A stretch of DNA of 64,000 bases from an uncultured Bacteroidia bacterium (lineage in GTDB: Bacteria; Bacteroidota; Bacteroidia; Bacteroidales; F082). The translations under genes and the position numbers were made by a program. This document shows, piece after piece, positions 10-11,771 of the stretch. The stretch's first letter is position 1. Each line of letters starts with the position of its first letter. The stretch lies in the NCBI GenBank assembly GCA_902801625.1, contig CADCJI010000001.1, positions 62,001-126,000 on the forward strand, read 5' to 3'. Under the pieces are notes generated by a model, which saw nothing but the letters and a program-made list of their open reading frames with translations, was not told the DNA's origin and made no database searches.

Positions 10-939
10 TTATTTTGCTTGAATCATCCCTTTGCTGCCCATGAAACTCACGCTGCGCGAGGCGGTTGCAGCAGCCTTCTCCAGTACTTTGCGAACGACT
101 TGCTCCGTGAGTTGTGCGATGTTGAGTTTGTTTAGTCTACATAGCTCTGCGAGGAAAACCGACGAGGTCCAGTCGCCTGCGCCTTCCCAATCAACCACAT
201 TGTTGTTAGGGATAGGAGCTATCCTCTGCCAACCCTGGCCTTGCAGGTTGAATTCCATACCTTCTTCACCTATGGTTCGGATGAAGAGTTTATCGGGATA
301 GTTGGCCACAAACGAGGTGTCAAGGATGTTAGTGCCCGAGAACTTGATGACATCGCTGACTTCAACGCATTTGATGAACTTGTTCATCTCCTTGTTGCCT
401 TCGGGCTCGTAATAGACCAGGACGCCTTGTCCCTTCAAGGCTTTAGCCAGTTCGCGAGGACCAGCGTCGGACACGTCGAAGAAATAGGCATCGGGCTTGA
501 AATCGAGTGCGTCGACAAAGCCTTGCACTTCGTCCTTGCGCAGCTGCTTCCTTTTCGGGAAGCGGCTGTTGGGGGCGGTGGCACGGTGGCTCATGGTGTG
601 TTGCCCGTTGGCGTCAAGCTTGTGGATGCAAGTCATCAAGGTAGTGCCACCCTCCTTGCTGTTTTTGACAAAGCGGGTGTTGGCACCATAGCGCTTCAGG
701 TCAGCGGTGATCTTCAGGCCTTGTTCCGACTCATCGAAATGACCGATGGGATAGGTCTCCACACCCAGATAAGGCAGCATGCACATCACATTGCCGCAAG
801 TATTGCCCACCTCTTCGATGAGCTTCTTGTCAACAAAAGGGTTGCGTTTTTTGGCGGTGTCGAATCCTTCTGGGTACTCCCGTTGGTAGATGATGTCTAA
901 GGCAAAGTTGCCAGTGCCGAGAATGCGTTTTTTGGTCAT
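10..939 (-). CDS. PfkB-family carbohydrate/nucleoside kinase
   Basis: A 309-residue ribokinase/PfkB-fold kinase, the usual family length. The C-terminal PfkB signature is visible as WEGAGDW (about residues 252-258); the GAGD loop supplies the anion hole and the catalytic Asp. The N-terminal ILGTGNFALDII segment fits the first strand and substrate loop. Families of this type phosphorylate sugars, nucleosides or related alcohols with ATP; the substrate cannot be read from sequence. Its start overlaps the stop of the NADAR gene (ATGA type), and a PARG-like gene lies first in the operon. I infer a substrate derived from ADP-ribose, such as ribose or a nucleoside. The gene is complete; its stop lies a few bases inside the window. 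Confidence 0.85.
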   Translation of the reverse strand: MTKKRILGTGNFALDIIYQREYPEGFDTAKKRNPFVDKKLIEEVGNTCGNVMCMLPYLGVETYPIGHFDESEQGLKITADLKRYGANTRFVKNSKEGGTTLMTCIHKLDANGQHTMSHRATAPNSRFPKRKQLRKDEVQGFVDALDFKPDAYFFDVSDAGPRELAKALKGQGVLVYYEPEGNKEMNKFIKCVEVSDVIKFSGTNILDTSFVANYPDKLFIRTIGEEGMEFNLQGQGWQRIAPIPNNNVVDWEGAGDWTSSVFLAELCRLNKLNIAQLTEQVVRKVLEKAAATASRSVSFMGSKGMIQAK

Positions 940-1529
940 AATGTGAAGTTGAGTGTTGGTTTGTTCTTGAATTCAAAATGTCCGTTGTTGCGCAATTCCA
1001 TGAGCAGACGGCCCATGAGATTCGGTCCAACATATTCGTTGCCTTTGAGCACGACACCCCAGGTGTCGGCATCTTTGCCTTTCTTTCTTGAGGTTTCATC
1101 TTCCACAATATACTTGCCCTTGCTTCGCTCCAACTCTTTGCGGAAGGCCTCACTCTGTTCAAATTTTAGTGTCAGGCAATACTTCATGGCGTCAACCACC
1201 ATGCTCGGCCAATGGTCGTGAAACCATTCGGGATGGGCCTTGTAGAGGTGTTTTACATGCATCTTTATCCCCATGCCAGCTTTGGCTTCCATCATCTCTT
1301 TGAAGCCTTCGGTGGCATCGGGTCTCAGTTTCATGATGTGGAAGAGGCGTTCCGTGCAGTCGAAGGTGAAACCATTGACAACGATGGGGGTCTGATAGAA
1401 ATTGCCAAGGACACCCCATTCGTCTTTTGTTCCCCGAATACAAATTGTCTCGGCGGCAGGATACCGTTCGATGCTGTAATACTCGGGATAGTTGTCCCTA
1501 ATCATTTCGTGTAGTTTCATGGTCTTCAA
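936..1529 (-). CDS. NADAR-domain protein (YbiA-like N-glycosidase family)
   Basis: A 197-residue protein matching the NADAR family: GVLGNFYQTPIVVNGFTFDCTE near residue 38-60, then the conserved LKFEQSEAFRKEL (about 122-134) and a WGVVLKGNEYVGPNLMG core near 155-171. NADAR proteins act on NAD-derived or riboflavin-pathway metabolites, and some remove ADP-ribose from guanine in DNA. The gene overlaps the end of the PARG-like gene by 32 nt and couples by ATGA to the kinase. Alternative starts at 1520 and 1505 would reduce the overlap. The PARG-like and kinase neighbours make ADP-ribose handling the likely role; DNA versus free-metabolite substrate is open. Confidence 0.85.
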   Translation of the reverse strand: MKTMKLHEMIRDNYPEYYSIERYPAAETICIRGTKDEWGVLGNFYQTPIVVNGFTFDCTERLFHIMKLRPDATEGFKEMMEAKAGMGIKMHVKHLYKAHPEWFHDHWPSMVVDAMKYCLTLKFEQSEAFRKELERSKGKYIVEDETSRKKGKDADTWGVVLKGNEYVGPNLMGRLLMELRNNGHFEFKNKPTLNFTL

Positions 1530-2523: not shown

Positions 2524-2552
2524 TATAGTAGCAGATGGTGGTTTTTTCAACC
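2524..2552 (-). promoter_or_regulatory. GGTTGA...CTATA element, copy 1 (PARG operon)
   Basis: Minus strand reads GGTTGAAAAAAC, 12 nt, then CTATA, 29 nt in all, ending 34 nt before the PARG-like ATG. The same element with identical spacing occurs at 3847-3875, 8613-8641 and 11053-11081. The 5' half is self-complementary (GGTT/AACC). It may be an alternative-sigma promoter or an operator overlapping a promoter. Confidence 0.6.
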
Positions 2553-2603
2553 TTGTGTTGTTTTTATTGCTTTGTTTTAGACAAAATAGGTGCTGCAAAA
2601 TTA

Positions 2604-3062
2604 CTAATTAATGCCATGAAAGCATAAGCTTTTCAATATATGATTGATTGTCGCTGAGTCGACTTGCCCTTGTGGGTAAGTGAGTTGTAATGTGAGGATG
2701 ATGTCGCCGTTGTCCGTGTTGGGAAAACGAGCTGTTTTTGTGTAATGGACCGTCCCGGCTGTGTCAATACCGTGGTGCACATAAAACACCTCGTCTTGAG
2801 GATAAAGGTCACGGGTGGTCAAGCCTGTGTCGTCCAAATCCATCCAGGTCATGTCCATGCACCCGGTGGCTATCAATGCCACCCCCTTGCCGTGACATGA
2901 GATGCCATCGCCATTCTCAGGCGGTGGATCCATCGTCATAAAGGAAGGATAGTCCAGCTCAAAGCCGAAGCGTTCGTTGTGGTAATGGACATACCTTGTG
3001 GTTTGGGTCTGACAACCCGTTAAAAACACAAGCCACAGAATTAGTAATATCAACTTTTTCAT
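2604..3062 (-). CDS. small lipoprotein of unknown function
   Basis: About 152 residues with a lipoprotein signal, MKKLILLILWLVFLTGC, giving lipobox LTGC. I chose this ATG (3062) over one two codons earlier because it gives a standard signal peptide. The mature part (FELDYPSFM, later ILTLQLTYPQGQVD) resembles short periplasmic-facing proteins of the PsbP/DcrB-like type seen in Bacteroidota, but I cannot place it securely. It follows a two-helix membrane protein by 12 nt, so the two are probably co-transcribed. Function unknown. Confidence 0.7.
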   Translation of the reverse strand: MKKLILLILWLVFLTGCQTQTTRYVHYHNERFGFELDYPSFMTMDPPPENGDGISCHGKGVALIATGCMDMTWMDLDDTGLTTRDLYPQDEVFYVHHGIDTAGTVHYTKTARFPNTDNGDIILTLQLTYPQGQVDSATINHILKSLCFHGIN

Positions 3063-3074
3063 AATCATATTGAA

Positions 3075-3329
3075 TTAACCACCTTTCTTTTTCTTGATGT
3101 TCAGATCGTATCCTTTCGACGGCCAACCCATATAGATGTCGAGGCCCACACTAATAATGAGCCAAACCACCATTAGCCACGAAAGAAATGACAACAAAAC
3201 ATCTTCGATGATCTCTTTTGTTGAGATGTACTCGATTTCTCTGTCATACAGATAGAAATATTCGTACGAGAAGATGCCAATAGCCGAGATGAGTATACCA
3301 ATGATATACCAAGTGATAATGCTAGTCAT
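3075..3329 (-). CDS. small two-helix membrane protein
   Basis: An 84-residue protein with two clear hydrophobic segments (about residues 4-25 and 47-66) separated by an acidic loop and ending in a lysine-rich tail (IKKKKGG), consistent with an inner-membrane hairpin with a cytoplasmic C-terminus. No family recognised. It sits between an unknown soluble gene and a lipoprotein gene on the same strand. Confidence 0.6.
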   Translation of the reverse strand: MTSIITWYIIGILISAIGIFSYEYFYLYDREIEYISTKEIIEDVLLSFLSWLMVVWLIISVGLDIYMGWPSKGYDLNIKKKKGG

Positions 3330-3362
3330 ATTATTGTGGATTTAGGTTTGTGATTATGGCCT

Positions 3363-3776
3363 TCACGCCGCGCAGGAAGCCGATGGGGCTTCCTGCAGCT
3401 GCTTGGCGGTCTTTGGGAGGAGGCTCTTGGCGAAGAAGATCACCAGGCGCTTGGCTTTGGCCATTTCTCTTTGTGAGCCTACCATAAGGTGGTAGAACAC
3501 CGTTGTCTTGGTGTTGAAGACAATCGCCACGACGGGGCCATTACCTTGGGCGCGCAGACGGATGGGTTCGACGCAGGGCTTGGCCTCGAAGGCTTTCCTG
3601 GCGAGCAACTCCGAGCTCAGTTTCTTGAGCGAAAGCAGTTTGTGACGGTAGGTCACCTCCCCAATGGTGACTTGTTCGTACCACACGTCGTTTTCGAAGG
3701 CGGTTTGGTGGGTTTCGTTGCCGGCCGACTTGAGCATTTCGGCGAATTCCGTTTGGTTGACTTGCTGGATCTCCAT
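3363..3776 (-). CDS. unknown protein under the GGTTGA/CTATA element
   Basis: 137 residues starting at MEIQQVNQTEF (ATG at 3776). A longer frame to 3839 is unlikely because those codons lie in the leader just after the promoter-like element. The protein has no signal peptide or membrane segment, is basic in the middle (KLLSLKKLSSELLARKAF) and ends in SCAA. No known domain recognised. Its main interest is regulatory: it carries copy 2 of the shared 29-nt element 71 nt upstream, so it may belong with the ADP-ribose operon and the caspase-like/AAA pair. Confidence 0.65.
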   Translation of the reverse strand: MEIQQVNQTEFAEMLKSAGNETHQTAFENDVWYEQVTIGEVTYRHKLLSLKKLSSELLARKAFEAKPCVEPIRLRAQGNGPVVAIVFNTKTTVFYHLMVGSQREMAKAKRLVIFFAKSLLPKTAKQLQEAPSASCAA

Positions 3777-3846
3777 AGTATTATTGTTTTTTTTTTGTTG
3801 ATAATGGAGGGTAAAGACACCCCTGTGGCGCCCTGCCACATAATCA

Positions 3847-3875
3847 TATAGAACAAAACAGAGGGTTTTTCAACC
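3847..3875 (-). promoter_or_regulatory. GGTTGA...CTATA element, copy 2
   Basis: Minus strand GGTTGAAAAACC, then CTATA at the fixed distance (29 nt total), placed just after the sbcC stop and 71 nt before the ATG at 3776. A T7 tract followed by CA lies directly upstream, as in copy 4. Confidence 0.6.
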
Positions 3876-3904
3876 AGGGGGAGTGAAAAAAATTACAAAT
3901 CCCT

Positions 3905-6814
3905 TTACAAATGTGGCACAATGTCTATGGTGCTGCTGGACGATTGCGGATTCTGATTGACCTGAATTTGTACAGGTATTTTTTCCTTCACTTCTTCGCG
4001 GTGGCTGATGGCACACACCTGGCGGTTGTTGCTGGCATGCAGCGACTCGAGTGTTTCGATAGCTTTGTACAAAGGCTCGCCGCTCAGCGTACCAAAACCT
4101 TCGTCGATAAACAAGGTTTCCACTTTCAAGCTTTGGCCAATCTCGCTTAAGGCTAAGGCCAAGGCTAAAGAGACGAGGAAACTCTCGCCACCCGAGATGG
4201 TGCTCGCTGGACGCCTCACTCCGCCTTGATAGGCATCTTCAACGAGGATGATCAACTCTTGCCCAGGCACAGCATGCAAGGTGTAACGGTCGGTGAGGGT
4301 ATGCATGTGGACGTTGGCAGCCTTAACCAAATTGGCGAGGATATAACTCTGGGCGATAAGACGGAATTTGTCGCCTTTGTCATCTCCAATCAGCTTGTCC
4401 AACTTGTTCCAACGTTCAAACACGGCTTTTCTCTTGTCATACTCAGTCTTAAGGTTGGCCAAATCCTCTTTTCTCTTGTCGTCGTCTTTCAATTGTTGTT
4501 CAATGGCGCCCGATTCTCTCCCCAAAGGAGCTATCTGCTCTTTCAGTACATTGACGGTGCCTTGCAATGACGCAATGGTTTCGCCCTCAGAAATCTCCGG
4601 CTTGACCTTCTGGTGGTCTTCCAATTGTCTGTTAACGGTGTCCAACGCTCCTTGTGCGCCAGCCAAGGCCTTGGTTTTGTTTTCCATAGATTGACGCTGC
4701 AGTCCAATTTGGTCCTTGAGTTGCAGCAGTTGCTCCAAGCGAGGTTCTGTCATGTCGGGGTGCTCGCCTAAGTAGTCATCTAGTTGTTTACGGTTGGTTT
4801 GGTGGCTGTCCATGGCCTTCTCCTTGGTTGTTAAGGCCGCCGATATTTGGTTTGACAACGACTGCATTTTGTCTAGTATGTTGGGCAGTGCTATTGCTTT
4901 TTGAGGTCCGAACGATTTCCATTCGGGTATCATCTCGAGTAACTGTTCGAATGACACTTTCAAAAGGTCAGCCTTGTTTTTCTTCAAATCGTCAAGGTCG
5001 CGCTGAAGTTTTTCGCGGTCCATTGCGCGTTTGATTCTTTTTTCGAGGTTGGTTTTCTGCTGTTCTGTTTTTTCCATAACTTGCTTCAAGACCTCAGTCG
5101 TGTGTTCATCCAATTGTCCGATGTGGCATTTTCCTAATGAGCGCAACGCGTCCTCTTGGGCTTTTTGGAGCGATTGGTCTTCTTGGAACGCCTTCAGCTC
5201 TTTGTCGTAAGTCGGTTTGTTTTGCTTCAGCCAAATCAAATATGTGTTTTGCTGATTGTTAAGATCGTCAAACACTTTTTTGGCGTCATCACGATTCTTT
5301 TTTGCTTTGGCTACAATGGCTTTTAGTTGCTCCTCGTGCGGAACGGTGTCAAGCGATTTCACAGCTTGGCCACAAATGGGACATTTATGGTTCAATTGCA
5401 AATTTTCGCGCAGTTTTTCGGCTAAGGTGTCGACCGCCAAGTTCAGACGCTCGTATTCTTTGTCCAATCTTTCGTATTCTTTTTTTGCTTCTTCTACCTT
5501 AGGCTGTAATTCGTTAAGTTGCCTGGTTTTCTCCACAATGGCAAGGGCTTGCTCGTCGAGTTTTTTCTTAGTGTTCTCCCGAGATGTTTGTTTGTCAAAA
5601 TAGGCCTTGACTTCAGCTTGGGCCACACGAATAAGGCCTGTCATTGTCACCACCCCTTCTTTTTGCTCACTCAGCTCATTTGCAGAAGTCTGTTTGCCTC
5701 CTTCGGCTTGGATTTCATCGTCGATCATCTTGATTCGGCCGGTAATCGACTCAATCTCTTGATGAATGAATTCTTGTCCGTTGCGTAAAGTGATGAACTG
5801 CGACTGTAGCTGCTGGATGGTTTGGTCGGTAAGGGATATAGCTTTTTTTGCCTCATGGATGCCAGTCAACCAGGTACGGGCATCGTATGTGCGGTCCCAA
5901 TCCTGCACATTCTGCTGCATGGTTTTAAATGTCTCTGTCTCCATGGCTTCTCTGGCTTGAGTCAATGCATCCAGTGCCTTTGTTTGGTTGTCGCGAAGGG
6001 TTTTATCTGTCGTCAACCAATTTACCTTCTTTTGCTCGGCCTCAAGTTGGGTGTTCATCAATTTTAGTTGTTCTCCAATGTTTTTAAGGTTCTCCTCCAA
6101 AGCAGCTCTTTGTTCCGGCTTCATCGCCTGTTCTTTTTTCTTTGGGTCCACCTCGTTCATTTCCTTCTCGTACTTGCGGTGTGTCAGATCGTACACTTTT
6201 GCTCCAATCTCCGCGTATTGCTCGGTGTTGGTGATTTTTTCGAGAATGCCTGCCTTCTCTTTGTTGCTGCACTTGAGGAAACGGGTGAATTCGCCTTGCG
6301 CCAGCATGGTGGTGCGGCAGAACTGGTCGAAGGTCAGTCCTACGGCCGTTTGGATGGCTTCTATCATTTCCTTGTCCTTACCGCTTCCTTTGCCATTGCC
6401 AGGTTGAGGAGTGGCTTCTGGGTGGGTTTCGTTTTCCAAAGACCAGGTGCGGTCAAGGTTTTTTTTCTTGCGAACTACGTGCCATTCGGCCAAATATGCA
6501 TTGCCGTCGTTGCCCAAAAACGAAAGACGTGTATAGGCTTCCAAAGTGTTTTTTCGCATCAGCTGCATGGTATCCGTGATGTCCAATGTGTCGGCATCAT
6601 TTTCCTCCCATTTTCCGTCCATCTCCGAGTTGTTCAAGCGCGGTGTAGTGGCATAGAGGGCCAAACAGATGGCATCCAAGATGGTGGATTTGCCGGCTCC
6701 TGTGTCACCCGTGATGAGGATGACATTGCTGTCCGACAGCGGTTTGGCTTCAAAATCGATGACGGCATCCTCTATGGATGCAATATTGTGGATCTCCAGT
6801 TTTTTCAGTTTCAT
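3905..6814 (-). CDS. sbcC: exonuclease SbcC (Rad50-like ATPase)
   Basis: A 969-residue SMC/Rad50-type ATPase. Walker A is GDTGAGKSTILDA (about residues 36-48); long coiled coils follow, broken by a zinc-hook CPIC near residue 480; the ABC signature ISGGESF and the Walker B LFIDEGFG lie near the C-terminus. With SbcD it forms the Mre11-Rad50-like nuclease that opens hairpins and processes DNA ends. It starts 2 nt after the sbcD stop. The length and motifs are complete, so the gene appears functional. Confidence 0.97.
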   Translation of the reverse strand: MKLKKLEIHNIASIEDAVIDFEAKPLSDSNVILITGDTGAGKSTILDAICLALYATTPRLNNSEMDGKWEENDADTLDITDTMQLMRKNTLEAYTRLSFLGNDGNAYLAEWHVVRKKKNLDRTWSLENETHPEATPQPGNGKGSGKDKEMIEAIQTAVGLTFDQFCRTTMLAQGEFTRFLKCSNKEKAGILEKITNTEQYAEIGAKVYDLTHRKYEKEMNEVDPKKKEQAMKPEQRAALEENLKNIGEQLKLMNTQLEAEQKKVNWLTTDKTLRDNQTKALDALTQAREAMETETFKTMQQNVQDWDRTYDARTWLTGIHEAKKAISLTDQTIQQLQSQFITLRNGQEFIHQEIESITGRIKMIDDEIQAEGGKQTSANELSEQKEGVVTMTGLIRVAQAEVKAYFDKQTSRENTKKKLDEQALAIVEKTRQLNELQPKVEEAKKEYERLDKEYERLNLAVDTLAEKLRENLQLNHKCPICGQAVKSLDTVPHEEQLKAIVAKAKKNRDDAKKVFDDLNNQQNTYLIWLKQNKPTYDKELKAFQEDQSLQKAQEDALRSLGKCHIGQLDEHTTEVLKQVMEKTEQQKTNLEKRIKRAMDREKLQRDLDDLKKNKADLLKVSFEQLLEMIPEWKSFGPQKAIALPNILDKMQSLSNQISAALTTKEKAMDSHQTNRKQLDDYLGEHPDMTEPRLEQLLQLKDQIGLQRQSMENKTKALAGAQGALDTVNRQLEDHQKVKPEISEGETIASLQGTVNVLKEQIAPLGRESGAIEQQLKDDDKRKEDLANLKTEYDKRKAVFERWNKLDKLIGDDKGDKFRLIAQSYILANLVKAANVHMHTLTDRYTLHAVPGQELIILVEDAYQGGVRRPASTISGGESFLVSLALALALSEIGQSLKVETLFIDEGFGTLSGEPLYKAIETLESLHASNNRQVCAISHREEVKEKIPVQIQVNQNPQSSSSTIDIVPHL

Positions 6815-6816
6815 GA

Positions 6817-8010
6817 TTAGTCCTCCTTGATTTTTAGTTTATCCAGTACTTCTTCAAACAGCGGTTGCATTTCTTGCTCGTTAAACAAGGCATTGTGAGT
6901 GTCGGCGGCAAACATCTTTACCACGCTCCACGGATCGGTGGCCTGGAATTCTTCCACGGTCATTTGTTGCTGACTGCCGCTGCCGTGGTCAAAAGTTCTA
7001 CGTTTGGCGTTGATGTGACAAAAGATATAGTCATTGTTTTTTGCCTGCGCAACGGCTTCGTCGTAGGCGTTGGACGGAATGTTTTCAAGGTCTATGATAT
7101 TAAGGCGAATGTATGCTTTTTCATCGGCTGGTAATGACTCATACAGCGTATGCACGTCATTCCATGGACCGAACTCTGTTGTGTCTTCCGGATTTGGCAA
7201 TGTCACCAGCGGGCGCGGATTGTTTATCTCCACGACAGTATAATTGTCGTCGGTGAGCACTGCGTTGTGTGCAGGGATGTCCACAATAGTCACTGAATGC
7301 GAGTAGGCTTCGTCGAAGCTGACCGCCATGGGTGAACCACTATAGCGGACATTATGCTTGCCCGTATGCACAAACTGGGGTTTGTGGATATGGCCTAACG
7401 CTAAATAGTCGTATCCGGTGCCTATGGAACTGATGTCGACAACGTCCACGCCTCCCACGCGTTTGTCGCTTACTTCCTCATGTCCCGCGAAATCGACTCC
7501 AAAGATGGCTGTGTGTGCACTGAAGACCACGGGCAAGTTATCCTTGTTCTTTTGATTAACTAAGTCGATCAGTTGTTGGTATATGTCCTCTGGCAGAAAA
7601 CGGTCGTTGGTGAACGGTAAGGCAATGACAACCCCCTTGTCGGGTATCTCGATGATGTGAGCGTCTAGATTATCTTTGTCAAACTTGCCGACCATATGTA
7701 CGTTGAGCGCTTCCCATGGCGTTTTGAAAATCTCGTGTTTCGTGCCACTGTCGTGGTTGCCTGCCGTGACGACGATAGTCATTTCAGGGCACTTTTTGCA
7801 TAAGGTTGCTATGGTTTTGTTGAACATCTTCTGTACTGCAGGCTTTGGGTCTACAGTGTGGTAAACATCGCCTGACACGAGAAACAGGTCGGGCTTCGTT
7901 TCTTCGGCAATCTTAACCATCTGGTCAAGCATATCTTGCTGTTCGTCAGTGCGGTCGTGGCCGTAAAGCACATGTCCCAAGTGCCAGTCGCTGGTATGTA
8001 ATATTTTCAT
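6817..8010 (-). CDS. sbcD: exonuclease SbcD (Mre11-like nuclease)
   Basis: 397 residues from MKILHTSDWHLGH (ATG at 8010). An upstream extension to 8052 is excluded because it runs into the -7 box at 8057-8050. All phosphoesterase motifs are present: SDWHLGH, SGDVYHT, GNHDSG, AHTA and LGHIHKP. It is the metal-dependent nuclease partner of SbcC. It has its own housekeeping-type promoter although it lies between units carrying the GGTTGA/CTATA element. Confidence 0.97.
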   Translation of the reverse strand: MKILHTSDWHLGHVLYGHDRTDEQQDMLDQMVKIAEETKPDLFLVSGDVYHTVDPKPAVQKMFNKTIATLCKKCPEMTIVVTAGNHDSGTKHEIFKTPWEALNVHMVGKFDKDNLDAHIIEIPDKGVVIALPFTNDRFLPEDIYQQLIDLVNQKNKDNLPVVFSAHTAIFGVDFAGHEEVSDKRVGGVDVVDISSIGTGYDYLALGHIHKPQFVHTGKHNVRYSGSPMAVSFDEAYSHSVTIVDIPAHNAVLTDDNYTVVEINNPRPLVTLPNPEDTTEFGPWNDVHTLYESLPADEKAYIRLNIIDLENIPSNAYDEAVAQAKNNDYIFCHINAKRRTFDHGSGSQQQMTVEEFQATDPWSVVKMFAADTHNALFNEQEMQPLFEEVLDKLKIKED

Positions 8011-8049
8011 GGTTATTTCTTTTTCGATTGATGTTTTTTTATTCGATAG

Positions 8050-8057
8050 CAAAGGTA
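8050..8057 (-). promoter_or_regulatory. -7 box of the sbcDC promoter
   Basis: Minus strand TACCTTTG, a perfect Bacteroidota TAnnTTTG -7 box, about 40 nt before the sbcD ATG. It supports the start at 8010. Confidence 0.6.
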
Positions 8058-8073
8058 GTATTTATTTCCGGGA

Positions 8074-8577
8074 TTATATGAAGATCCTGGAATTATTCCA
8101 TTCACCAGGGAAGAAATAGCTCTGTAGTTGATAGATTTCCTTGGCATTGTCGTGCATTTCGCTGAAGTCAATCTGATAGAGGGCACCGTCGCTTTTTAGT
8201 TCATTTGGGTAGCCGGCCATGGCTTGGGTGAAGACCTTTTGGGCTAGAACGGGGTTTTCGTGACGCAGGTGACTGAAGCGGTAAGTGGAGCCAAAGAACA
8301 GCGCCCGGGTAAGCAGATAGACATACTCCTCATCGTTGAGTTCCACCTCCACCTTCTGATGATCGAAAAGTTTGAGCTCTTCTACATCGACTTTGGCACA
8401 GGTCATCTCATACAAAGGGTAATACTTTGGCCTTTTCATGGAGTTGGCATACTCTTTGGCGATTTTCTCGCATTGGGCTTTCTCGTTGAGCAGCCTTAAA
8501 GTGAACTTGGGTGGGAACTCGTTATTCGGTTCAAAGAGCTCGGCAGGGTTCATGTTGGGGTCTTCTAGTAAAATCAT
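8074..8577 (-). CDS. unknown acidic protein under the GGTTGA/CTATA element
   Basis: 167 residues, soluble, rich in Glu, Asn and aromatics (FEPNNEFPPKF; VELNDEEYVYLLTRALFFG). No signal peptide and no recognised domain. The ATG at 8577 is used, with MNPAELF eight codons later as an alternative. It is a single-gene unit: copy 3 of the shared element lies 36 nt upstream, and sbcD downstream has its own promoter. Its link to the caspase-like/AAA genes is by position and shared element only. Confidence 0.65.
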   Translation of the reverse strand: MILLEDPNMNPAELFEPNNEFPPKFTLRLLNEKAQCEKIAKEYANSMKRPKYYPLYEMTCAKVDVEELKLFDHQKVEVELNDEEYVYLLTRALFFGSTYRFSHLRHENPVLAQKVFTQAMAGYPNELKSDGALYQIDFSEMHDNAKEIYQLQSYFFPGEWNNSRIFI

Positions 8578-8612
8578 AATCTTTGTTGTTTTTGTGAATG
8601 TTCCTTATTAAT

Positions 8613-8641
8613 TATAGGACAAACATATTGGCTTTTCAACC
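8613..8641 (-). promoter_or_regulatory. GGTTGA...CTATA element, copy 3
   Basis: Minus strand GGTTGAAAAGCC then CTATA at the fixed spacing, inside the 84-nt gap between the caspase-like gene and the gene starting at 8577. An ordinary -7 box (TATGTTTG, 8627-8620) lies inside the element, so the motif could be an operator over a housekeeping promoter rather than a promoter for another sigma factor. Confidence 0.6.
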
Positions 8642-8661
8642 AATGAAATTAAAAAAGGTAT

Positions 8662-9192
8662 TTATGCAAAATACCTCATCCCCTCATAGTTATACTTCAC
8701 GAAGTCCTTCTCCTTGTGGCAGCCGGCTTGCAGGCGGGGCACCCATTCGTCCATGGGAAGACCTCCTTTCAGAAAGTTGTTGATGGTCTCGCAGAAGAGG
8801 TTGACTTCGTTGAGAATGTCCTCGTTGGTGTTGTCGGGGAAGCCAAAGCCCTCGGCCTCGTTGATGTTGGAGACAAACATGGAGGTGAAATAGCCTTGCA
8901 AGCCATAGCGCTCAGCGAAGCTGCTGGCAAAGCACCAGATGCCTATCACCTGCCTGCCTCTCAAGAGATCGACCATGCTGTGATCAACAACATAGCCGAA
9001 CCAGTCTCTGTTGAATAGACCGCTACTGGACCCGTGCCCGAGGCACATCACCAAGGGGTCGTCGTCGCGCTTTAGTTGCGCGACGACCTCCTCCTTGGTG
9101 GGGTTGTACAATAAGGTTACGTTCTCAAGACTCTCGTAAGTTTTCTTCAAACGAGCAGTGTCCTCCATTGTGTCAACGTGAATCACTATCAT
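8662..9192 (-). CDS. caspase/CHAT-like cysteine protease candidate
   Basis: 176 residues. I see the two-part caspase-fold signature: a hydrophobic strand ending in His-Gly (PLVMCLGHGSSSG, about residues 46-58) and a second strand ending in Cys (VIGIWCFASSFAERYGL, about 81-97), the order and spacing of the catalytic His and Cys in CHAT/clan CD peptidases. No prodomain, signal or transmembrane segment. It starts 22 nt after the AAA+ ATPase stop, so the two are almost certainly co-transcribed from the element at 11053-11081. Clan CD proteases beside ATPases occur in bacterial defence. Activity and target are inferred; it may be a non-proteolytic fold relative. Confidence 0.6.
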   Translation of the reverse strand: MIVIHVDTMEDTARLKKTYESLENVTLLYNPTKEEVVAQLKRDDDPLVMCLGHGSSSGLFNRDWFGYVVDHSMVDLLRGRQVIGIWCFASSFAERYGLQGYFTSMFVSNINEAEGFGFPDNTNEDILNEVNLFCETINNFLKGGLPMDEWVPRLQAGCHKEKDFVKYNYEGMRYFA

Positions 9193-9214
9193 AATCTTTA
9201 TATGTTTATTGTTA

Positions 9215-10972
9215 CTAACTACGGAATCCTATCGGCTTACGGCTATTCGTGTTGCTTCTGGCAATCTGCTCCTTCGAACAGAGCTCCTCAATGTGATTGA
9301 GGTCAGGGGTGCCACCAAAGAGCAGGTGGTCAACCATCACCTTGCGCGCGATGTTCTCAATTTGGCCACCGCTGAAGTTGTAGGAGCGGGCCAACACACT
9401 AGCATCAGTATCGGCAAGGCCCGGGATGAAGCTCTGCCAGATGTGGGTCTTGGCCTCCACACTGGGTTGATGGAACTCCACCTTATACAGGAAACGTCTA
9501 TCGAAGGCACTGTCAAGGTTGCAGGTGAGGTTGGTGGTGGCAATCATAATGCCATCGATGTCTTCCATAGCCTGGAGCAGGATGTTCTGTATCGCATTCT
9601 CCGTCTTCTCGAGGGTGGGGTTGTTGCCTCCCACGCTCGTACGCACCGAGAGGACCGCGTCAGCTTCGTTGATAAGCAGGATGGGGATGTGTTTCGATTT
9701 CTTCACGCGCTCGGCATAGCTCTCGAAGATGCCTTTCACTATCTTCTCCGTCTCACCGTACCATTTGTCTCGTATCGACGAGATGTCGACCTGCATAATG
9801 TCGCGGCCCGTCATACGAGCCAGTTGCAAGGCTGTCTCTGTCTTACCCGTACCCGGACCGCCATAGAAGAGGCAGTTGAATCCTTTGCGGAGGTTGGCCT
9901 TCTCCAAGCGTTCGCGTATGGCTTTCAGTTGCTCATCCTCGAGCAGGTGCTGCAAGGTGTTGATTTGCCCTTGGTCTTCAGCAGAATAGAACAACGCTTT
10001 GGGCTTGATGTCATTACAGCTGAGGATTTTGCTGTGTTCATCCTCGTCAACTTCATCGACATCGGCAGGGATGTCATATTCGCTGAGGAAGAGTTTGCGG
10101 GCTTTGTCGGTGAGTTGGAAGATGTTATTCGACATAAAACCGGCTTCTCCTGTGAGCTTTAGAAGTCCATCCTTGATGAAAGGGTGATTTCCGTTGGTCA
10201 TCAGTATAGGAAACTCGTCATCGATATCGTCTGTGGAAAGAAACTCCAGCTGACCGAGGGGAACCCTTATCTGTTGGTCAACGACGAGTCGCTTGCAGAA
10301 ATAGAGTAGGTATAGCTTATCAAATTGATTTACTCTCAATCCGTTAATACTGCGTGCGATAACCAGTTGAGGATTGTTGTTGAGCAATTCTATAGTCTCG
10401 TAGAGTAGCTCGTCTTCGTCAATTTGACCGCTACGACCTGCTTCACGCACCAAGGTAGTAAAGCGTTTCATAAACTCTTCTGCTGTCAGATTGGCAGTGT
10501 TGACAATGGGCAAGGCTTGGTTGTCGCAGAAGGCCGCCTTGGCCTTCTCACTTAGCTGATAGGCAGGTCCGCTGCCATGAAAGCAACCGCGTTTTCTGAT
10601 GTAGCGGCGGTGCGTCAGTGTCTTCAGGTTTTCCGTTTTCCGCATCATGGTTATGGGAGAACAAGAGAAGTAGTCCGTCATTTCTCGCGTGTTCACGGTA
10701 CACTCAGAATTGGAGATGAAGGGGCAAAGCATTACTGTCTCTTCTGGTGTCAGCTCAAGGTCGGCGGCCGTCGACTCAATCAGAGATTTGTGGCGTTTGA
10801 AGAACTTGTCTTCAAGCCTGGAGCCTACTGCCAGTTGTATGAGTTGCTCAAGCTTGTCGAGCAGGCTCATACTTTTCAGTTTTGCCTTACTGACCGGAGT
10901 GGCCTGTGCGTAGTAGGGGATGGGGTTGAACACTTCGTCGTCCAACTCAAAGGAGTCTTGCTTTCTTTTCAT
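9215..10972 (-). CDS. AAA+ ATPase with N-terminal winged-helix-like region
   Basis: 585 residues. The C-terminal half is a classical AAA+ module: Walker A FYGGPGTGKTETALQ (about residues 367-381), Walker-B-like ILLINEADAVL, in which the usual Asp before Glu is Asn, sensor region IMIATTNLTCNLDSAFDRRF with arginine-finger candidates, and sensor 2 near FSGGQIENIARK. The N-terminal half has segments typical of Bacteroidota AAA proteins that read peptide or protein partners (MTDYFSCSPITMMRKTENLKTL looks like a helix-turn-helix). It forms a two-gene unit with the caspase-like gene, suggesting an ATPase that senses or feeds that protease. Copy 4 of the shared element lies 81 nt upstream. Confidence 0.85.
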   Translation of the reverse strand: MKRKQDSFELDDEVFNPIPYYAQATPVSKAKLKSMSLLDKLEQLIQLAVGSRLEDKFFKRHKSLIESTAADLELTPEETVMLCPFISNSECTVNTREMTDYFSCSPITMMRKTENLKTLTHRRYIRKRGCFHGSGPAYQLSEKAKAAFCDNQALPIVNTANLTAEEFMKRFTTLVREAGRSGQIDEDELLYETIELLNNNPQLVIARSINGLRVNQFDKLYLLYFCKRLVVDQQIRVPLGQLEFLSTDDIDDEFPILMTNGNHPFIKDGLLKLTGEAGFMSNNIFQLTDKARKLFLSEYDIPADVDEVDEDEHSKILSCNDIKPKALFYSAEDQGQINTLQHLLEDEQLKAIRERLEKANLRKGFNCLFYGGPGTGKTETALQLARMTGRDIMQVDISSIRDKWYGETEKIVKGIFESYAERVKKSKHIPILLINEADAVLSVRTSVGGNNPTLEKTENAIQNILLQAMEDIDGIMIATTNLTCNLDSAFDRRFLYKVEFHQPSVEAKTHIWQSFIPGLADTDASVLARSYNFSGGQIENIARKVMVDHLLFGGTPDLNHIEELCSKEQIARSNTNSRKPIGFRS

Positions 10973-11052
10973 AAGGCGGGTGATTTAAAAGGTTCTTTAT
11001 ATTGTTTTTGTGTAGACAGGGACGCTAAACTTGCGCCCCGTGTCTATTTGCT

Positions 11053-11081
11053 TATAGAGCGCCAGAAGCGATTTATCAACC
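11053..11081 (-). promoter_or_regulatory. GGTTGA...CTATA element, copy 4 (AAA/caspase-like operon)
   Basis: Minus strand GGTTGATAAATC, then CTATA at the same 29-nt total length. The flanking GCGCC and GGCGC can pair around the 5' half. A T7-CA tract precedes it, as in copy 2. It lies between the sigma-factor gene and the AAA gene. Confidence 0.55.
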
Positions 11082-11099: not shown

Positions 11100-11771
11100 T
11101 CAAGCACAGAGTTTGAAAGAGATCTGCTCGTCCAAGATCTGCCCGCGAAGCTCGTCATGGACACCGTTCAAGTGTTTGCAAACAGCTTGTGGGGTAACTT
11201 GTTCCAAGGTGGCAATCTGCTTAAACGTCATGGGTTCGCCCTCATAGCCATAACGTCTGTAAACTAAGGTTTGATCTTTCGGCTCAAGTTTGGATACCGC
11301 CCTGTTTAGTTTCTCCAATAGACATTTATGTTCCCAATCCCAGTTGCAATGCATACCCTTTGCTTGAATCTTGTCAAAAAACGAAGGATTGAAGCAATCC
11401 CAATCGGAATCGTATGCATCGTACCTGACAATAGAAACCGATTCGCGTTGTTTGTCAGACATTTTAACAGGAAACAAGCATCTAATTTCAGCCAACATCT
11501 CATTCCAAATGCAATGCGAAGCATAGGTTCGAAAATTAGCCCCACGCGAGGGGTCATAGCTTTGGGTTGCTTTGACCAAGGCCTCATCTCCCGCACTGAC
11601 AAGGTCATCAACCGTCACCCACGAGCATTCTTGACACCGCATACTAAGTTTCCTAGCAAGAATGCCAACCAAATCGTGATTCACTTGAATGAGTTTGCTT
11701 TGATTGGGGGTAATGGTTTCGAGGTTGCGGCAGCTCATAGTGCCTTGGATACGAGCATAATTGTCATTCAT
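11100..11771 (-). CDS. sigma-70 family RNA polymerase sigma factor
   Basis: 223 residues. Region 2 is clear: VDDLVSAGDEALVKATQSYD followed by GANFRTYASHCIWNEM (about residues 54-91). Region 4 is at the C-terminus, with LEPKDQTLVYRRYGYEG and an HTH reading MTFKQIATLEQVTPQAV. Regions 1.1 and 3 are absent or reduced, so it is a small alternative factor rather than the housekeeping RpoD. A CQEC pair before region 2 is unusual. It is oriented into the AAA/caspase-like genes. It could recognise the four GGTTGA/CTATA elements found just downstream; that is inference from proximity only. Confidence 0.85.
   Translation of the reverse strand: MNDNYARIQGTMSCRNLETITPNQSKLIQVNHDLVGILARKLSMRCQECSWVTVDDLVSAGDEALVKATQSYDPSRGANFRTYASHCIWNEMLAEIRCLFPVKMSDKQRESVSIVRYDAYDSDWDCFNPSFFDKIQAKGMHCNWDWEHKCLLEKLNRAVSKLEPKDQTLVYRRYGYEGEPMTFKQIATLEQVTPQAVCKHLNGVHDELRGQILDEQISFKLCA

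Follow-up and report, generated by a model that had tools for sequence, protein, structure and literature searches.

Little is known of how defence islands turn on their genes in concert. Among the closest described cases is CASP-sigma of the type III-E CRISPR system of Desulfonema ishimotonii; in the part of the published account available to us (PMC10028731), this sigma factor belongs to a defence locus, and its binding motifs lie in the promoters of that locus, with few elsewhere. Here we describe a similar arrangement in a 64,000-nt stretch (the window; G000:C1:62001-126000) of the draft genome (3.58 Mb) of an uncultured Bacteroidia bacterium. Four copies of a 29-nt element precede genes of a putative defence island that also encodes a small sigma factor. 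Judging by sequence comparison, the elements probably represent a class of non-housekeeping promoters with the island sigma factor as their reader, and the sigma factor and the 29-nt switch probably form one portable control system.

Like the type III-E system, which reportedly includes the caspase-like CHAT protease, the window encodes a protein, of 176 aa, that is caspase-like by motif. However, CASP-sigma is described there as similar to extracytoplasmic function (ECF) factors and as inhibited by Csx30, which is cleaved by Cas7-11-Csx29 (PMC10028731), whereas the window sigma matches sigma-70-type factors, with FliA the best in PDB and SigK/SigE-type models ahead of FliA in NCBIfam. No Cas7-11, Csx29, Csx30-like inhibitor or CRISPR effector was seen among the scanned proteins, which represent part of the island genes. 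The simplest reading would be a sigma factor serving promoters specific to it, by a logic comparable to that of CASP-sigma as far as these sections describe it (PMC10028731).

A sigma-70 domain within a defence system is also known from MzaA of the MZA system, which the window sigma matches weakly; however, judging by its models (683 and 726 positions), MzaA is a far larger protein, and the stretch that matches best covers region 2 alone. IetA is the AAA ATPase of an anti-phage pair, partnered with a protease. The AAA domain encoded in the window matches IetA models, but the match is partial (79 bits against the curated cut-off of 510 bits), and in the window the ATPase stands next to the small caspase-like protein. 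Another regulator of immune operons, CapK/CapS, is reportedly activated by DNA damage.

In the same phylum, sigma motifs have been mapped in Flavobacterium psychrophilum. The part of that paper available to us describes variants of TAnnTTTG, the motif TAnnTTGY, a motif for sigma-54 and one of the ECF type that includes a CGT box (PMC9723704); TTGAWA-N17-TATA, the core of our element, is not among them. If the proposed reading is true, the element would be a Bacteroidota promoter type beyond the sigma-A, sigma-54 and ECF-type motifs of that map, as far as it is covered here. If such promoters are rigid enough to be recognised and have a sigma factor dedicated to them, the whole regulon could be read off the sequence, even where gene functions are unknown. 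In the literature searched (one collection), we found no published description of a comparable defence island run by a sigma factor or of a TTGAWA-N17-TATA box for Bacteroidota.

The 29-nt element and its spacing

The four elements lie on the minus strand at 2524..2552, upstream of PARG-NADAR-PfkB; at 3847..3875, upstream of u137-TM84-lipoprotein; at 8613..8641, upstream of u167 and possibly, by read-through, of sbcDC; and at 11053..11081 (GGTTGATAA-N15-CTATA), upstream of the AAA+/caspase-like operon. A site nearly identical to the last precedes the AAA gene in G055, G058 and G083. The first-pass annotation had reported these four copies 34-81 nt before an ATG. All four are exact, and the gaps from CTATA to the start codon are 33, 70, 35 and 80 nt. 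They are the sole zero-mismatch matches in the window, which has no one-mismatch copies; with up to three mismatches, there are 17 matches against 8.9 expected. With its two boxes, a constant distance apart and in front of genes, the element has the layout of a sigma-dependent promoter; it differs from the Bacteroidota housekeeping (sigma-A) promoter, which has a TAnnTTTG -7 box.

The placement of sbcDC outside the set, proposed in the same annotation, holds in part. An ordinary -7 box, TACCTTTG, indeed lies 47 nt before the sbcD ATG; but sbcD starts 63 nt after u167, a gene with a site, and in three relatives (G018, G054 and G052) the element is 68 nt upstream of sbcD itself. The spacer of the u167 site contains TATGTTTG, which fits the TAnnTTTG box, and so do the orthologous sites in G014, G055, G071 and G087; overlapping promoters are possible at this site. 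Directly left of the window, at G000:C1:61316-61344, a one-mismatch site (AGTTGAAAACGGTTGAAAAGAAATCTATA) precedes a gene for a 157-aa protein that belongs to this region.

We searched a genus set of 99 genomes with GGTTGAWAA-N15-CTATA (equivalent to TTGAWA-N17-TATA), using the reversed pattern as the control. In the genome of the window, GGTTGAWAARNC-N12-CTATA has six matches against none in reverse, five of them on one contig within a span of ~32 kb, all on the minus strand; the looser exact pattern has seven against one, and allowing one mismatch yields 12 against five, mostly noise. In the 99 genomes, 87 matches to the looser pattern, spread over 36 genomes, compare with five control matches, while the one-mismatch scan, with matches in at least 90 of the 99 genomes, added noise. 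Twenty-five of the 87 lie upstream of htrA; being treated as one conserved site, they are left out of the main counts and considered separately below.

A genome was called sigma-positive if it had a strong match (E <1e-40) to profile A1, built from 11 homologues of the window sigma; this holds for 15 of the 99 genomes. G001, with a weak match only and no site, was counted as negative. In the sigma-positive genomes, the numbers of matches with spacers N12 to N18 are 1, 1, 2, 52, 1, 1 and 0; in the sigma-negative ones, 9, 2, 8, 10, 6, 3 and 7. Hence N15 compares with the six other spacings summed as 52 to 6 in the former and 10 to 35 in the latter. By a hand count, 41 of the 52 sigma-positive sites have a same-strand ORF that begins no more than 120 nt downstream (two of them, at 5 nt, assume an early start codon, and another falls within an opposite ORF of 62 aa), compared to 2,588 of 86,000 random positions (3.0%). 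The remaining 11 comprise six sites at 160-514 nt upstream, two of them in G084, whose sigma gene is not followed by an AAA gene; two where the locus or contig ends; one intragenic (G086:C17); one at 1,579 nt; and one in G095 that overlaps a 64-aa ORF, 260 nt upstream of the sigma gene. The genome-wide search that the first-pass annotation had proposed thus found the exact motif to be rare, situated before genes and, in sigma-positive genomes, locked in its spacing.

Without the intragenic site, 51 sites yielded 29 non-redundant 74-mers. Outside the search pattern, A10 and C12 are conserved (each in 22/29), and a T-rich tract lies 10-15 nt upstream of GG, with T in 16-24 of the 29 at each of six positions; by eye, it is present in three of the four window sites, the PARG site being the exception. 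TTTG after CTATA is not conserved in the 29, the u167 spacer being an exception. The flanks and spacers are unrelated, and therefore the element is not a copied repeat. Among the matches listed from outside the genus, 110 distinct strings have spacers N13 to N17 in 17, 18, 32, 21 and 22 cases, with no comparable spacing lock and with C12 in 3 of the 32 N15 strings. The mild excess of N15 there may be a coding-frame effect, as N12, N15 and N18 (9, 10 and 7) are the commonest spacings in the sigma-negative genomes of the genus, apart from N14 (8).

The genus with these sites apparently comprises rumen-dwelling bacteria: the named related loci come from Bacteroidales or Bacteroidia metagenome-assembled genomes, one from sheep rumen and most with RUG isolate names, which presumably denote rumen origin.

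The island sigma factor and its co-occurrence with the sites

The proposed reader of the elements is a sigma-70-family factor of 223 aa (11100..11771, minus strand). It comprises sigma2 and sigma4 domains, a disordered linker and a tail ending in -CA. That a small sigma factor is encoded here, as first noted from the sequence, agrees with the Pfam match to region 2 (3.4e-10), the match to region 4, which is below the cut-off (0.0011), and the TIGR02937 score of 54.4 against 42.9 bits; the predicted model has two folded domains (mean pLDDT 68). Ten other aligned sigma factors are 27-86% identical to it, compared to 35-95% for the neighbouring AAA protein and 75-98% for the caspase-like protein, so the sigma factor is more diverged than either. 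In the region-4 helix, as we place it in the alignment, all 11 rows keep A and K, and six have PQAVxK unchanged. The -CA end is found in all 11 rows and also in G026, G047:C39 and four relatives of 193 or 211 aa; it is missing from relatives of 342 aa and 390 aa (two proteins) and from the second one in G055. A second paralog, of 194 aa and also ending in -CA, is encoded ~34 kb leftward (G000:C1:38760-39344; L052:8757-9341).

Of the 62 sites outside the htrA class, 52 are in the 15 sigma-positive genomes and 10 in the 84 sigma-negative ones. At least one such site is present in 15/15 of the former and 9/84 of the latter (p 6e-12) and, among 36 close relatives, in 12/12 and 3/24 (p 4e-7), both p-values being optimistic because the sites share descent, which is a further point against the island sigma factor as the reader. 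Close relatives were defined by htrA at least 82% identical to that of the window genome; G097, with a partial match, and G084, with no htrA match, were excluded. As rows of the sigma profile were partly picked from loci fetched for their sites, the sampling of sigma factors and sites is not fully independent; a search from the window sigma alone (60 genus genomes, eight positive) gave a site in 8/8 against 4/52 by a hand count. Some sites are distant from the sigma locus, namely, those of sbcDC in G018 and G054 and of AAA paralogs in G053 and G058. Strong A1 matches also occur in three other genomes, from other families of the order, with no sites beside them; a distant caspase-like homologue (L101) has neither a site nor, by BLAST, a sigma factor.

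We lean towards the element being a promoter, most likely read by the sigma factor of the same island; both promoter activity in vivo and reading by this factor are inferred. The -35 box would be GGTTGAAAAAnC, separated by 17 bp from the -10 box CTATA (TTGAAA-N17-TATA), and the T-rich tract ~10-15 nt upstream of the -35 box resembles the upstream (UP) element of promoters. The sigma factor would act in trans on the units bearing the element, that is, AAA+/caspase-like, u167(-sbcDC), u137-lipoprotein and PARG-NADAR-kinase, and on distant genes in some genomes. Its own gene is downstream of a site in G018, G054 and G095, which would make positive feedback possible; the window gene is located upstream of the fourth element. 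One speculative possibility is that the factor is activated by regulated proteolysis at its conserved -CA tail via the AAA+/caspase-like operon, the first one of the regulon. A broader proposal seems rather doubtful to us: a portable, fast-diverging sigma factor (27-86% identity) with its own code of fixed boxes would unify a modular defence island in rumen Bacteroidales, genes anywhere in the genome would join by gaining a box, and the -CA end would serve as a feedback handle for the AAA+/caspase-like pair.

Several observations weigh against the island sigma factor as the reader. Six of the 10 sites in sigma-negative genomes are intragenic (G012, G048, G090), overlap an ORF start (G002, G019) or lie 193 nt upstream of an ORF (G077), but the other four are close to genes. 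Two of these are in G047 and one is in each of G052 and G089, and three precede families also met in sigma-positive genomes (u137, SbcD and c21). Divergent sigma-domain genes are present in G047 and G052; no sigma-domain gene was tied to the G089 site. One-mismatch sites accompany close homologues of the AAA gene in sigma-negative G064 and G069, and three paralogs of it in sigma-positive genomes (G055, G086 and G087) lack a site. No site precedes the window sigma gene itself (the best match agrees in 8 of 14 positions), and PQAVxK is inexact in five of the 11 sigma rows. Moreover, the co-occurrence could partly reflect island genes bringing both their promoters and the sigma factor.

The divergent sigma-domain gene of G052 and one in G084 have near-sites (13 and 12 of 14) 72-73 nt upstream. 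At L240:7381-8553 and L233:12489-13661, we observed genes for 390-aa proteins with a sigma-like region, each with the near-site GGTTTAAA 72-73 nt upstream and inverted GGTTTA/TAAACC inside it.

The htrA site and alternative explanations

The 25 matches set aside above come from 24 genomes, share the spacer letters GCATTAATG and lie ~31-34 nt upstream of a gene for a PDZ-domain serine protease of the htrA type; all 25 positions agree with those of htrA. In the window genome, the site is at G000:C4:60592-60620 (L135:3592-3620), 33 nt before htrA, with the palindromic spacer GCATTAATGA and an rpoD-like neighbour. In all three loci read, htrA adjoins a gene for a 288-aa sigma factor (regions 1.2 to 4). 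We considered matches with the GCATTAATGA spacer as a coding coincidence and rejected this, since the sites are directly upstream of htrA. These sites, too, count against an exclusive role of the island sigma factor: they fit all fixed positions, yet 14 of the 24 genomes lack the factor by profile (10 have it), and C12 is found in six of the 25 (hand count). Probably, then, some other factor of the genus can use these boxes.

This other reader could be a core, genus-wide factor, either another alternative sigma or RpoD under stress, with htrA as the ancestral target into whose promoter class the island genes have been plugged, the island sigma doing something else or merely adding to expression. 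Such an arrangement is possible, though we think it unlikely. It would explain the retention of the htrA site in genomes with no detected close relative of the island sigma, the presence of C12 in some htrA sites, and the sites in genomes negative for A1, before sbcD in G052, before u137 and, with one mismatch, AAA in G047, and before c21 in G089. It does not explain why the spacing-locked excess outside htrA is restricted to sigma-positive genomes. Besides, the htrA sites differ in the share of C12 (6/25 against 22/29) and have a different common spacer, containing CATTAATG, so they may be a separate class. Either the htrA sites form a class of their own, in which C12 is not a rule and the palindromic spacer is shared, or both classes have a core factor as their reader, with the island sigma as an amplifier; since the htrA site and a few others are kept in genomes where no close relative of this sigma was detected, another factor may read this promoter class as well.

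The initial suggestion had been -35/-10 boxes of an alternative sigma factor or else an operator overlying a promoter. An operator, to which a repressor or activator would bind, could have two blocks, and the htrA spacer does hold a palindrome; but the blocks of the element are unrelated to each other, non-palindromic, mostly gene-facing and spaced as -35 and -10 boxes, and the T-rich tract is placed like an UP element. No other regulator gene was noticed travelling with these loci, most of the neighbours not having been searched for DNA-binding domains. As the motif tracks the sigma gene across genomes, sigma boxes are favoured, and we regard an operator as improbable. Of the original pair of options, the sigma one is partly upheld by the rarity, spacing, placement and sigma tracking of the motif, and is qualified by the htrA site, the few others with no detected sigma and the membership of sbcDC in relatives. 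Short AT-rich boxes do arise by chance, at ~1 match per spacing over the 15 sigma-positive genomes and ~6 over the 84 others. The spacing counts by themselves contradict chance, and together with 87 matches against five and 29 non-redundant flanks they make chance or a dispersed repeat extremely improbable, in line with the non-random recurrence claimed at the outset. We retain a promoter most likely read by the island sigma factor as the preferred reading.

Gene content of the putative island

All window genes described here are on the minus strand. The AAA+ ATPase of 585 aa (9215..10972) has a C-terminal AAA domain similar to IetA and TRIP13. The gene family is multi-copy, with 72 homologues in 39 of the 99 genomes, and most of the paralogs examined have no site or adjoining sigma gene. 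The 176-aa protein (8662..9192) has an invariant GHG...WC motif, which we take to be of the caspase/CHAT type; H53, G54 and C87 are invariant in eight rows. Its fold agrees weakly with this assignment: the predicted model (mean pLDDT 63) matches response regulators with the best E-values, SAVED-CHAT proteins being at ranks 6 and 8 (TMq 0.51-0.52, E ~0.01), and the sequence search of PDB with this protein gave no match.

The u167 gene (8074..8577), with no assigned function, opens a block with genes named, from sequence reading alone, sbcD (6817..8010) and sbcC (3905..6814). It is followed by u137 (3363..3776), a recurrent target also lacking an assigned function, TM84 (3075..3329), encoding a small protein, hydrophobic by eye, and a gene for a 152-aa lipoprotein (2604..3062). 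The last block comprises genes for a PARG-type ADP-ribose hydrolase (TIGR02452; 1498..2490), a NADAR protein (936..1520) and a PfkB-family kinase (10..939). The recurring blocks (sigma, AAA+, caspase-like, u167-SbcD-SbcC, u137-TM84-lipoprotein, and PARG-NADAR-PfkB followed by an ADP-ribosyltransferase, ART) occur in varying combinations, flanked by at least two different sets of genes.

To the left of the window, up to the second sigma paralog, we found IIG/type II restriction-modification proteins, a Schlafen-type protein, an ADP-ribosyltransferase (weak match) and a protein similar to Druantia type III DruE (G000:C1:43890-50000, L052; E 9e-251; 2036 aa within the stretch covered). In G055, the matching region carries a DrmD/HKD-Snf2-like helicase and an IIG-like enzyme. 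As the genes are contiguous, we infer that the window operons and the left-hand defence genes form one island.

NADAR and PARG enzymes reverse RNA ADP-ribosylation, as described in the part of the source available to us (PMC11833690); the PARG-NADAR operon may therefore be protective. After the PARG-NADAR-PfkB run, a putative ADP-ribosyltransferase (weak ART-PolyVal/DUF3990 match) is encoded at G000:C1:61421-61996 (L053:11421-11996), and together they possibly constitute a modifier-eraser set.

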